In this document: piece after piece, positions 5,300 to 8,309 of the stretch
Layout: every line of letters starts with the position of its first letter
Numbering within the stretch: position 1 is the first letter of the stretch
NCBI RefSeq assembly: GCF_004122115.1
Contig: NZ_SBKP01000012.1
Span: 1-64,000, forward strand
DNA length: 64,000 nucleotides
DNA from: Sphingobium fluviale
Lineage (GTDB): Bacteria; Pseudomonadota; Alphaproteobacteria; Sphingomonadales; Sphingomonadaceae
Direction of reading: 5' to 3'
Notes under the pieces: model-generated
The model's input: only the letters and a program-made list of their open reading frames with translations
Database searches by the model: none
What the model was told of the DNA's origin: nothing
Position numbers and translations under genes: made by a program

Positions 5300-5826
5300 C
5301 GGCGCGCCTTTCCGCGCTGATACTGCTGGTGTGGGCGCTCGGCTTTGGCTGGTTCGCGCTGTTGCTGCCCCAGCCGCTCGATGGGCGCACGACCGACGCG
5401 ATCGTGGTGCTGACAGGCGGGCCGGGACGGCTCGACCGCGGCCTCAAGCTGATGCAGGATGGCGCGGCGCGGCGCATGCTGATCTCCGGCGTCGACCGCG
5501 CGGTGAAGCCGCACGAGCTGGCCGTGACCTATCAGGTGCCGGACACGCTGTTCGCCTGCTGCATCACGCTGGGCCGCGAGGCGATAGACACCCGCTCCAA
5601 CGGCATCGAAACCGCGCAATGGCTGGAGCGGCGCGGTTATGACACGGTGCGCCTCATCACCAGTGACTGGCACATGCGGCGCGCCGCGTTTGAGCTGAGG
5701 CTGGCGCTGCCCGCCGATATCGTGCTGGTCTATGATGCGGTGCCGAGCCAGCCGAGCTTTTCGACGCTCTTCATGGAATATAACAAATATGTGCTGCGCC
5801 GGGTCGCGGCCCTGATCGGGATTTGA
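5296..5826 (+). CDS. YdcF family (DUF218) membrane-anchored protein
   Basis: A 176-residue protein with an N-terminal membrane anchor (about residues 5-24) and a DUF218 domain beginning DAIVVLTGGPGRLDRG, the nucleotide-like fold shared by YdcF, SanA and ElyC. ElyC and SanA affect envelope integrity and lipid-carrier metabolism in Escherichia coli; a related envelope role would fit the ftsEX neighbourhood but is inference. The GTG start overlaps the ftsX stop (GTGA). Confidence 0.85.
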   Translation: MTARLSALILLVWALGFGWFALLLPQPLDGRTTDAIVVLTGGPGRLDRGLKLMQDGAARRMLISGVDRAVKPHELAVTYQVPDTLFACCITLGREAIDTRSNGIETAQWLERRGYDTVRLITSDWHMRRAAFELRLALPADIVLVYDAVPSQPSFSTLFMEYNKYVLRRVAALIGI

Positions 5827-5831
5827 GGCGA

Positions 5832-6542
5832 ATGGCAGGCACAATGCTGGCGGCGGCGCGATCTGCGCTGTTTGCGCTGTTATTTTATCCGCTCACGGCT
5901 GTGACGGTAGCGGCATGTGGGGTTGCGGGGCTGTTTTCCGCGCAGCTGCTGCGCCGGGTGGCGCGGCTGTGGGGGTTCATACACCGCTTTTTGTGCCGCT
6001 TTGTGCTGGGCCAGACAGTGCGGATCATCGGCACGGTGCCGACCGGGCCGGTGCTGATCGTGTTCAAGCATGAGTCGATGTTCGAGACGATTGACCTGCT
6101 CTGCCTGTTTGCCGAGCCGGTGGTGATCGCGAAGCAGGAGCTGCTCGACATTCCCGGCTGGGGCTGGGCCGCGCGGCGGCACGGGGTGATCGGCCTCAAG
6201 CGCGACGATGGCGCAAAGGCCATCCGCCACTTGCGCACAGAGATTGCGAAGGCAACCGGCTCTGGCCGCCCGATATGCCTGTTCCCCGAAGGAACCCGCG
6301 TGCCGCATGGAGAGCGCCCGGCGATTCGCGCGGGGTTTGCCGCGCTCTATCAGTTGCTCGGCCTGCCGGTGGTGCCGATAGCGGTCGACAGCGGGCTGAT
6401 CTCGCCGCGCCGCAGCTTTATCAAACGGCCGGGCATCATCACCTACAAGGTGGGCGAGACCATTGCCGCAGGGCTGCCCCGCCACGAGGCGGAGGCGATG
6501 GCCCATGCCGCGATCAATGCGCTGAACCCCACAGCCGATTGA
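5832..6542 (+). CDS. plsC: 1-acyl-sn-glycerol-3-phosphate acyltransferase
   Basis: A 236-residue membrane acyltransferase that converts lysophosphatidate to phosphatidate in phospholipid synthesis. The catalytic motif is KHESMFET, the HX4E variant seen in one PlsC subgroup instead of HX4D, and the glycerol-phosphate motif is FPEGTR. Hydrophobic segments precede the catalytic block. ATG 5832 is chosen; TTG 5823 (overlapping the upstream stop) and ATG 5844 are alternatives. An FNR-type box overlaps its stop codon. Confidence 0.9.
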   Translation: MAGTMLAAARSALFALLFYPLTAVTVAACGVAGLFSAQLLRRVARLWGFIHRFLCRFVLGQTVRIIGTVPTGPVLIVFKHESMFETIDLLCLFAEPVVIAKQELLDIPGWGWAARRHGVIGLKRDDGAKAIRHLRTEIAKATGSGRPICLFPEGTRVPHGERPAIRAGFAALYQLLGLPVVPIAVDSGLISPRRSFIKRPGIITYKVGETIAAGLPRHEAEAMAHAAINALNPTAD

Positions 6543-6552
6543 CCTGAATCAA
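6539..6552 (+). promoter_or_regulatory. FNR/FixK-type box
   Basis: TTGACCTGAATCAA matches the FNR/FixK consensus TTGAY-N4-RTCAA in both half-sites. A possible -10 hexamer CATGAT lies at 6575-6580, which places the box centre about 41.5 bases upstream of an expected start near 6587, the spacing of class II FNR-activated promoters. It precedes the small membrane protein at 6607. Confidence 0.7.
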
Positions 6553-6583
6553 GGACATTGCGGCCCATCGCCGACATGATCCG

Positions 6584-6600
6584 CCCTCCAACGAGGAGGG
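6584..6600 (+). promoter_or_regulatory. inverted repeat covering the ribosome-binding site
   Basis: CCCTCC (6584-6589) is complementary to GGAGGG (6595-6600), which is the ribosome-binding site of the small gene at 6607. It could mask initiation in a longer transcript; a transcript starting near 6587 would lack most of the first arm. Confidence 0.45.
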
Positions 6601-6606
6601 TTATGT

Positions 6607-6711
6607 ATGAACATTCTGCACGAACTGCCGCTGATGGGCGCCATCATTGCCGCCGGAATTTTCATGGCGGTGATGATTTTCGTCTCGGTGGAAGACGCCC
6701 TCAAGCACTGA
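6607..6711 (+). CDS. 34-residue single-helix membrane peptide
   Basis: A short frame beginning MNILHELPLM and ending VEDALKH. One hydrophobic helix spans about residues 9-27 and is flanked by acidic and histidine-containing ends. It has a strong GAGGAGGG ribosome-binding site six bases upstream of ATG 6607 and an FNR-type box 55 bp upstream. No family is recognised. Small single-helix proteins under oxygen control are often accessory subunits of respiratory oxidases, but nothing here identifies a partner. A hairpin (6717-6729, GAGGG/CCCTC) after the stop may terminate it together with the convergent gene. Confidence 0.7.
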   Translation: MNILHELPLMGAIIAAGIFMAVMIFVSVEDALKH

Positions 6712-6727
6712 GAGAGGAGGGCCGCCC

Positions 6728-7159
6728 TCAGCAGCGGCGGCCATCACCCTTGTCTATGGCGTGGCCCGCCACCGCGCCGATAGCCGCGCCTATTACCGTG
6801 CCAGTGGTCCGATCTCCACGACCGGCAACCTGATTGCCGAGCAGGCCGCCCGCAACCGCGCCGATCACCGCGCCGCCCTTGCCTTCATCGCGGCAGCGAT
6901 AGCGGCCCTTGCTGTCATAATATCCACGGTCATAATTGTAATAGCGGCCATCGCGCCGATAGTCCGCGCGGCGATAATCGCGATAATCGCGATCATAGCC
7001 GTTCCAGCCATGCCCGCGGTTATACCCGCCATAATAATCGCCGGGGCGATAATCATGACGATCATGACGCGCCATCGCAGGGGTGGCGCTCATGGCGCCC
7101 GCGCACACCAGCCCCATAGTGACTGCTGCGATCATCTTTTTGCTGAATATGTGTGCCAT
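6728..7159 (-). CDS. glycine-zipper 2TM domain exported protein
   Basis: A 143-residue protein with a signal peptide (MAHIFSKKMIAAVTMGLVCA, cleavage after ATPAMA), an Arg/Tyr/Asp-rich repetitive middle (YRRADYRRDGRYY-like units, about residues 31-95) and a C-terminal glycine-zipper hairpin (GAVIGAVAGGLLG and GTVIGAAIGAVAG). This architecture is common in outer-membrane-associated proteins of alphaproteobacteria. ATG 7159 is chosen because AAGGAG lies seven bases upstream; an in-frame ATG at 7177 lacks a site. Confidence 0.85.
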   Translation of the reverse strand: MAHIFSKKMIAAVTMGLVCAGAMSATPAMARHDRHDYRPGDYYGGYNRGHGWNGYDRDYRDYRRADYRRDGRYYNYDRGYYDSKGRYRCRDEGKGGAVIGAVAGGLLGNQVAGRGDRTTGTVIGAAIGAVAGHAIDKGDGRRC

Positions 7160-7313
7160 CGCGCCGCTCCTTTTCATACTGAACTCTGCCTAGATGCCTT
7201 TTGTGCCTGAACCGGCTTGAGCCGATGCTGAATAAGGCTGTCAGCCTATGTTCAGCATTGTACAGGCGATATTTGCGTGAATTCCCCAGATTTATAGCCT
7301 ATGCCCGCCACAC

Positions 7314-8309
7314 ATGCGCTGGTTCCTCAGTCTCTCCGTCCTGCTTATCATGCTGTCTATCGCAGCTTCGTCGATCAATACCAAGCCGGCGACGCCTACG
7401 CCCGGCCCGGTTGCCATCGCGATAGAGCCGCTGGTGCTCAACCCGGATGATCCCGCGCAGCTGACGCTCGGCGCGCTGCGCTATCTCGGCGGGTGGCGGC
7501 TGACGAGCGGGCGGACGCTGTTCGGCGGCCTTTCTGCGCTGGCGGTAAAGCCTGACGGGCAAATCTGGGCGCTGAGCGATGGCGGTGTGGTGTTCGAGCT
7601 GCCCCAGCCCGGCCCGGCGGCCAAGGTGATTGTGCAGGCGCGGCTCTTGCCGATCAACAAGCCCAAGAAGCACTGGATGCCCCGCCCGGAAGACAGCGAA
7701 TCGATGACGGCGGACGGGGACTTCACCCATGTCTGGGTCGGCTATGAGCTGTTGCAGCTCATCTGCCGCTATGACACCGGCCTCAAGCAGATCGGCCCAT
7801 GCCGCCGCCCGCACCAGCTCTCCGGCTGGCCGGAGACAGAGAGCATCGAAACGCTCGCGCGGCTGCCCGATGGGCGCTTCATCGCGATATCGGAGGGCGG
7901 ATCAGGCCCGGCAGGCGGGCGCGACATGCTGGTGTTCGCGGGCGACCCGGTCAACATCGCGACACGGCGGCCGCTGCGCATGAGCTATATGCCGCCCGTG
8001 GGGTATGACCCGACGGACGCGGTCTATATCGGCGACGGCAAGCTGATCGTGCTCAACCGCCGCGCGACGCTGTATGACGGTTTCACCGCCGTGCTGAAGC
8101 TGATCGATCTGCGCCAGATGCGCGAGGGCGCAGCGCTTAACGGCCCGGAGATCGCCCGCTTCGCGCCGCCGGTGCTGGCCGACAATTTCGAGGGGCTGGC
8201 GCTGGAGCGGCACGGGAAACAGCGGATCTTGTGGATGGTGTCTGACGACAACCATCTGTTTTTCCAGCGCACGCTGCTGTTGAAATTCGCGCTGGATGAG
8301 GATCTGTAG
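7314..8309 (+). CDS. esterase-like activity of phytase family protein
   Basis: A 331-residue exported or anchored protein: hydrophobic N-terminus (about residues 3-20), then a beta-propeller-type domain with GGLSALAVKPDGQIWALSDGG near residue 65 and EGLALERHGKQRILWMVSDDN near the C-terminus, the pattern of the esterase-like phytase family (PF13449 type). Substrate unknown. It is followed by a double-hairpin element shared with the region after prs. Confidence 0.82.
   Translation: MRWFLSLSVLLIMLSIAASSINTKPATPTPGPVAIAIEPLVLNPDDPAQLTLGALRYLGGWRLTSGRTLFGGLSALAVKPDGQIWALSDGGVVFELPQPGPAAKVIVQARLLPINKPKKHWMPRPEDSESMTADGDFTHVWVGYELLQLICRYDTGLKQIGPCRRPHQLSGWPETESIETLARLPDGRFIAISEGGSGPAGGRDMLVFAGDPVNIATRRPLRMSYMPPVGYDPTDAVYIGDGKLIVLNRRATLYDGFTAVLKLIDLRQMREGAALNGPEIARFAPPVLADNFEGLALERHGKQRILWMVSDDNHLFFQRTLLLKFALDEDL

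Follow-up and report, generated by a model that had tools for sequence, protein, structure and literature searches.

In the window, the whole stretch of 64,000 nt of Sphingobium fluviale DNA analysed here, a gene for a 34-aa single-helix membrane peptide lies behind a regulator-binding site of the FNR/FixK type. The box, TTGACCTGAATCAA, occupies positions 6539..6552 of the plus strand, with its centre at 6545.5, and fits the sphingomonad Fnr consensus perfectly. A -10-like hexamer, CATGAT (6575..6580, plus strand), is located exactly 22 bp past the box. The predicted, unmapped transcription start at 6587 is 41.5 nt from the box centre, which corresponds to the class II position. A Shine-Dalgarno sequence, GAGGAGGG, was read at 6593..6600 (plus strand), 6 nt 5′ of the ATG at 6607. 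The peptide frame (6607..6711, plus strand) encodes MNILHELPLMGAIIAAGIFMAVMIFVSVEDALKH, terminates with TGA at 6709-6711, and is matched by the profiles described below. Upstream, on the same strand, a PlsC-like acyltransferase is encoded (ORF 5823..6542; PF01553, E 3.3e-19), and its stop codon lies within the box: the TGA of TTGACCTGAATCAA serves both functions. Downstream, the ORF table lists a convergent gene for a glycine-zipper protein on the minus strand (6728..7177; PF05433, E 8.6e-12). Since this next recognised gene 3′ of the peptide is on the opposite strand, the peptide gene looks monocistronic and seems to stand alone in the window. Direct reading of the DNA confirmed all the elements described in an earlier, sequence-only reading of the locus, namely the box, the -10 element that gives the -41.5 geometry, the ribosome-binding site, and the 34-codon frame.

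The window box can be written as TTGAC-CTGA-ATCAA and has no mismatch to TTGAc/t-N4-g/aTCAA, the expression-derived Fnr box of Sphingopyxis granuli, which is centred mostly at -41.5 according to the accessible part of its description (PMC7713065). The exact 14-mer is present only once in the 3.07-Mb genome. The pattern TTGAY-N4-RTCAA occurs at 13 genomic sites versus 1 for the reversed control pattern, so that the chance of finding one in a given 60-bp stretch is about 2.5e-4. Relative to the FNR consensus of E. coli, the window box differs at a single base, position 5 being C instead of T. Low-oxygen targets, ccoN and a globin gene, were recognised at 2 of the other 12 genomic sites, and most of the remaining ones are located within ORFs; the box by itself is therefore not specific. 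A generic sigma-70 scan found no promoter at the locus, as is expected where an activator box substitutes for the -35 element. The loose form of the box was only modestly commoner than its reversed control in four relatives (10 versus 6 sites in G084, 22 versus 18 in G114, 36 versus 14 in G011, and 11 versus 5 in G181), and no recognised low-oxygen gene was seen at three other box sites inspected in G084 (L132, L140, and L144).

Two other boxes in the genome that contains the window deserve a description. One of them (L033, G000:C1:47702-47715) starts 59 nt before a truncated globin gene (PF01152). The second, the consensus box TTGACCTGCATCAA (L032, G000:C1:42562-42575), is flanked by the ends of two genes that converge on it and has no obvious target; a further short gene that escaped annotation may be located there.

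The same genome encodes an FnrN-type regulator of 232 aa (L039) with CRP-family domains, cysteines at positions 4, 7, 15, and 103, and the motif E-x-x-S-R in the recognition helix. Its cysteine pattern suggests an O2-sensing FNR homologue. The regulator gene adjoins the boxed ccoN and the cco gene cluster, at the far end of which we read HemN-like and OmpW-like genes.

The survey for homologous peptides covered 298 genomes of the Sphingomonadaceae. With the window peptide as a query, tblastn gave matches in 29 genomes at E<=1 (own genome included), all but that in the own genome being weak. Eight of the 29 other tblastn loci contained a short ORF just 3′ of a strict box, which we defined as TTGA-N6-TCAA. 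A profile (A1) was made from ten peptides, namely that of the window, those of eight boxed relatives, and one from an unboxed relative (G237). In this held-out test, a strict box was present at 15 of the 17 further family matches obtained at E<=0.003, and the next three loci (E 0.006-0.012) were long frames without a strict box. The flanking regions of 26 relatives contained 8 boxes in 371,613 bp outside the peptide genes, or 0.0013 per 60-bp stretch. Against this background, the 15 boxed matches correspond to P ~6e-42 on the assumption of independent loci, an independence that is only partial. Two later profiles, A2 and A3, omit the diverged peptides L057 and L069 as well as L068, which is near-identical to L062; A3 additionally omits the ftsK-type copies described below, with the exception of that from G237. 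Profile A3 matched 35 of the 298 family genomes at E<=0.003, and all 6 carriers newly seen outside the genus had a strict box. Overall, of the 30 carriers that belong to Sphingomonadaceae genera other than that of the window, all but G143 and G021 possess the strict box; in these 28, its centre lies 60.5-85.5 nt before the start codon.

Examination of 94 Sphingobium genomes with profile A2 revealed matches in 56 genomes at 58 places (E<=0.01). A box was detected at 20 of these places, 19 times at 55-71 nt and once at 114.5 nt from the start. Among the 38 places without a box, 22 are located beside ftsK according to a motif test; of the 16 others, 12 share the MIA/MFA-x-x-YP type with the ftsK copies. 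FNR control of the peptide family is therefore not universal: conservation of the box holds across the family outside the genus but not within Sphingobium, where most matches lack it.

The ftsK-type loci (L050, L154, L156, L157, L159, L161, L163-L165, L167, L169, L170, and others, all in Sphingobium) have no FNR box, and their peptide gene adjoins ftsK, which is divergently oriented; downstream, most of the loci read contain a GNAT-like gene. A hidden box was sought in 14 unboxed copies from ftsK loci and rejected, the aligned upstream regions showing only a half-site-like GTCAA. Boxed and ftsK-type copies occur together in two genomes only, in one of these by virtue of the doubtful 114.5-nt copy, versus about 8 genomes expected if the two types were independent (hypergeometric P 0.001, uncorrected for kinship). 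This rare co-occurrence suggests that one type replaces the other. A search for the acyltransferase gave 46 loci, and the downstream region was checked in 24 of them. The order acyltransferase-box-peptide is kept in Sphingobium sp. DEHP117 (L173) and in the metagenome-assembled genome Go_Eff_bin_2 (L174), both with the box in the same position as in the window, while 22 of the 24 checked loci have none there.

Similar peptides were also revealed in other alphaproteobacterial families. Profile A2, when applied to 385 genomes of the class, gave weak matches in 29 genomes besides the own one (E<=0.05). Six of these loci encode short peptides, of which four have a strict box, one has a CTGA variant, and one has none. 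As a control, a strict box within 250 nt was found at 0 of the 23 other weak class matches. The copy in G537 is without a strict box. A further profile (A5), composed of the six short class peptides and run on 245 class genomes, matched 23 genomes at E<=0.01, 18 of these outside the profile. With four long-frame matches left out, a strict box was found at 10 of the 14 new matches examined, across 8 families; two of the ten boxed loci share a genus with a profile member. The peptides of other families have a common helix pattern (YL, then A-F-x-x-F and L-A), and F19 is common to them in the alignment while D30 is not. Because the helix pattern is common but the SVEDAL tail is absent, joint descent of these peptides with that of the window is likely, as judged from the sequences, though not proved.

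The promoter was compared at 62 boxed loci (57 non-redundant), all anchored on the box, which was sought up to 130 nt from the start codon. L235 was excluded from this count (box at 114.5 nt), and L265 was started at a non-Met residue. Only T/C-TGA-N6-TCAA was required for inclusion in this set. The pattern TTGAY-N4-RTCAA was matched in full by 56 of the 57 non-redundant loci, with the exception of L254, whose first base is C. Position 5 was C or T and position 10 was A or G in all 57 loci, neither having been required. Box centre and start codon were 55.5-85.5 nt apart (median 63.5). The -10-like pattern xAxxxT was present exactly 22 bp past the box in 27 of 57 loci versus 2.2 expected, while offset 21, the second most frequent, reached 7; an earlier subset of 29 loci had it at +22 in 18 cases and at any other offset in 4 cases at most. 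The 22-bp spacing between box and -10 element places the box at -41.5, that is, in class II geometry. A loosely defined SD-like motif was located no more than 20 nt from the start codon in 51 of 57 loci. The sequence-only reading had proposed a comparison of the box and its -41.5 spacing among relatives as a check; the box proved to be kept outside the genus (28/30 strict boxes), and the spacing was enriched among the boxed loci (+22 in 27/57).

The window peptide is predicted to form a helix from residue 3 to residue 33 (mean pLDDT 91.8), with the hydropathy maximum at residues 10-28. In the A3 alignment of 37 peptides, F19 and D30 are invariant and S27 is nearly so, and the tail is charged. 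Outside F, S, and D, sequence conservation is poor; the peptide family is a diverged one, with members of about 32-41 aa and a single helix. The dN/dS values among the window peptide, L173, L174, and L155, all from close Sphingobium relatives, were 0.17-0.29. Another genus gave values of about 0.2-0.3 for five pairs and about 0.7 for one close pair (dN 0.12, dS 0.17). Selection was weaker in the ftsK-type copies, nine of which had a pooled pN/pS of 0.44. These comparisons support the identification of the frame at 6607-6711 as a conserved protein-coding gene under purifying selection. A chance ORF was ruled out by the conservation in the family and genus and by dN/dS. The earlier reading had named lack of conservation of the frame as grounds for its rejection; the frame was found to be kept in relatives. 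One copy, L251 in genome G203, has an intact box and an in-frame TAG after 7 codons, and is possibly a pseudogene or a sequencing error.

Gene neighbourhoods were surveyed in 26 relatives and the window and at 18 loci from other families, by eye, by ORF grouping, and by Pfam searches of a selection. A conserved gene partner was sought and rejected, the neighbours varying beyond close relatives, except for genes of the FNR regulon at some loci. An fnr gene is divergent from and adjacent to the peptide gene in G084 and G114, and one is 2.8 kb away in G011. The peptide copy in G021 is located near UspA and a HemN-like radical-SAM gene, and the copy in G011 is also near a HemN-like gene. A globin gene with an upstream box is present near the peptide in G253 (L095). 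An MgtC-family gene adjoins the peptide in two genera (L073 in G273 and L074 in G021), with DUF4010 also present in G021; small peptides regulating MgtC are known. The locus had been described as lying far from any oxidase genes. For ccoN this is true in the own genome, where the gene is on contig C22 and the window on contig C3, but not in G273 and G021, in which ccoN is about 12-13 kb from the peptide.

Searches of Pfam (covering 4 peptides and, separately, 24 members) and NCBIfam gave no family match above the cut-off. The best Pfam match below the cut-off was to PsbX (E 0.059 for the window peptide and 0.015 for one of the 24 members), and the NCBIfam NqrC model gave E 0.002 for one relative, with 17 bits of the 329 needed. 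No relative was found among solved structures in PDB with profile A1 at E<=10, and two tblastn queries for plasmid-borne named relatives gave no match. No description of such a peptide was found among the open-licence papers searched, nor do the accessible parts of PMC5082802, PMC10117765, PMC11742914, and PMC6515984, which deal with small proteins, responses of rhizobia to low oxygen, or oxidases, mention one. The Fnr class II regulon of Sphingopyxis granuli TFA, as far as the accessible part of its description extends, includes ccoN, uspA, nrdZ, and others at -41.5, with the box consensus and the -41.5 position as in the window; Table 1 of that part has no such peptide by name but includes the monocistronic uncharacterised SGRAN_3843 (PMC7713065).

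We consider, with a probability of roughly 0.7, that the locus encodes a stand-alone inner-membrane helix peptide of an undescribed family, which would be activated at low oxygen from a site at -41.5 and would tune a larger complex. The oxygen-responsive small protein suggested by the sequence-only reading is well supported by comparison, with box, spacing, and frame kept and an FnrN-type regulator encoded. Activation of the peptide gene by FnrN at low oxygen from the class II site is very probable on this comparative ground. The subsequent step, insertion of the peptide as a single helix and its binding to a larger complex that operates in the membrane at low oxygen, is argued by analogy, and the odds for it are somewhat below even.

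One candidate for such a complex is the cbb3 oxidase, for which the peptide would be a specific accessory or assembly helix, equivalent to CcoM in alphaproteobacteria and with its gene separate from ccoNOQP. The family cut-off for ccoN was exceeded in 30 of 35 carriers versus 140 of 263 other genomes (Fisher P 2e-4, uncorrected for kinship), and the own ccoN, like the peptide gene, is behind an FNR-type box. CcoM has one helix, and its gene lies apart from the cco operon. In the cbb3 oxidase of Pseudomonas stutzeri (PDB 5djq) we take it to be chain N, whose record itself says putative uncharacterized protein; with 36 aa, it is similar in length to the window peptide. The accessible part of one report describes it as a cbb3 subunit that is important at low oxygen (PMC10433244). 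Comparison by hhalign placed residues 13-35 of both in register, weakly (probability 8.9%, P 0.0037), and F20, D31, and A32 are in register by eye. HMMER, however, gave no support: CcoM came 3362nd among 5003 sequences, with CydX, CydH, and most of its own shuffles ranked above it. Homology to CcoM is thus not supported by the statistics.

The distribution of ccoN speaks against a cbb3-specific helper. The window's family also occurs without ccoN, so that an obligate cbb3 association of the kind known for CcoM was not found: the gene is missing from 5 of the 35 family carriers (G011, G084, G143, G174, and G181; 4 of these 5 genomes are 99-100% complete) and from 5 of the 15 boxed carriers tested in other families, where 10 had a ccoN match, 9 of them over the cut-off. 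Two genomes, G084 (99% complete) and G508 (a single contig, 100% complete), were found to have a boxed peptide but neither ccoN nor cydA, and hence the peptide has no obligate partner in either cbb3 or bd. G308 is likewise without ccoN and cydA, but this genome is only 77% complete and its box is the CTGA variant. G084 also has an fnr gene. Furthermore, the 140 genomes with ccoN but no detected peptide indicate that the peptide is dispensable for cbb3, although short diverged peptides may be missed in such a search. A cbb3-specific role is accordingly considered unlikely. CcoQ/FixQ is a small single-helix protein of the FNR/FixK regulon as well. It is longer than the window peptide (61 aa in P. 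stutzeri, in the accessible part of PMC10433244) and is encoded within ccoNOQP, whereas the window peptide has no Pfam match and ccoN is on another contig. The earlier suggestion of an oxidase accessory is left only weakly supported, by the cbb3 enrichment of the carriers; against it stand the several carriers without ccoN, and no sequence relation to CydX, CcoQ, or CcoM was found.

Similarly improbable is a low-oxygen stress peptide with no fixed partner that would act on the membrane itself, by lowering its potential or fluidity, or on a sensor. Such a function would agree with the stand-alone gene, the helix-only product, the low conservation outside F, S, and D, and the occurrence with or without cbb3 and bd. 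A precedent is YohP of E. coli, a stress-linked membrane peptide of 27 aa that we liken to the window peptide by description, not by sequence, and whose production is linked to starvation and stationary phase, not to oxygen, in the accessible part of PMC12719787. The invariant F19 and D30, the nearly invariant S27, and the charged tail suggest a specific contact instead, and the purifying selection also argues against this explanation.

It is very improbable that the transcript matters, as an FNR-induced small RNA or leader with an incidental frame. The predicted transcript is indeed short, but dN/dS of about 0.2, the family-wide residue conservation, and the frequent SD-like motif (51/57) are against this; in addition, Rfam gave no RNA family at E<=0.1 in 5800-7400, and there is no recognised same-strand gene downstream to lead.

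CydX and CydH (YnhF) of the E. coli bd oxidase are likewise very short respiratory membrane peptides, and the gene for CydH lies outside the cyd operon according to the accessible part of PMC11742914. A CydX-type subunit of cytochrome bd oxidase has this precedent and the presence of cydA in 14 of 27 family carriers tested in its favour, but it can be dismissed almost entirely, because cydA is absent from the own genome and 12 others of the 27, CydX has no supported sequence match to the window peptide (no Pfam CydX match up to E 10; 6 columns aligned by hhalign, probability 0.7%), and CydH reached an unsupported 4.1 bits in the HMMER comparison. For the genome of the window, where PF01654 (cydA) gave no match, a CydX role is excluded unless the gene is missing from the assembly (G000, 99.99% complete).

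Returning to a low-oxygen helix that tunes a larger complex, the following sequence of events can be proposed. At low oxygen, FnrN would carry an iron-sulphur cluster and activate the peptide gene. After insertion of the product, the VS-x-E-D-A-L-K/R end would be cytoplasmic according to the positive-inside rule. The face formed by F, S, and D may then make a helix-to-helix contact with a larger low-oxygen membrane complex, which the peptide might stabilise or tune in analogy to the orphan-encoded oxidase helices CcoM and CydH. The partner cannot be cbb3 alone or bd alone. The most likely target would be heme-copper oxidases as a class, including aa3/bo3, or else a different core complex of respiration.

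A wider view, which we regard as doubtful, is that of an overlooked, fast-diverging helix present throughout the alphaproteobacteria, with the FNR/FixK promoter, and not the gene neighbourhood, as its most conserved feature, that would be a core member of the low-oxygen regulon of the class and switchable on a universal respiratory complex. If true, this would mean a helix that works on an aa3/bo3 oxidase, on bc1, or on ATP synthase, also in organisms that have neither cbb3 nor bd.

The promoter helped to find family members where the sequence alone was weak. This suggests a general route to such peptides, in which the search is anchored on a regulator box at fixed spacing and short conserved helices are then sought. 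The 57 non-redundant loci, many with a base-exact predicted start, provide a test set for the role of orphan small membrane proteins at low oxygen. A conserved low-oxygen family appears to have been missed because gene callers and family databases pass over members this short. The peptide is probably a real, undescribed part of low-oxygen adaptation in sphingomonads.
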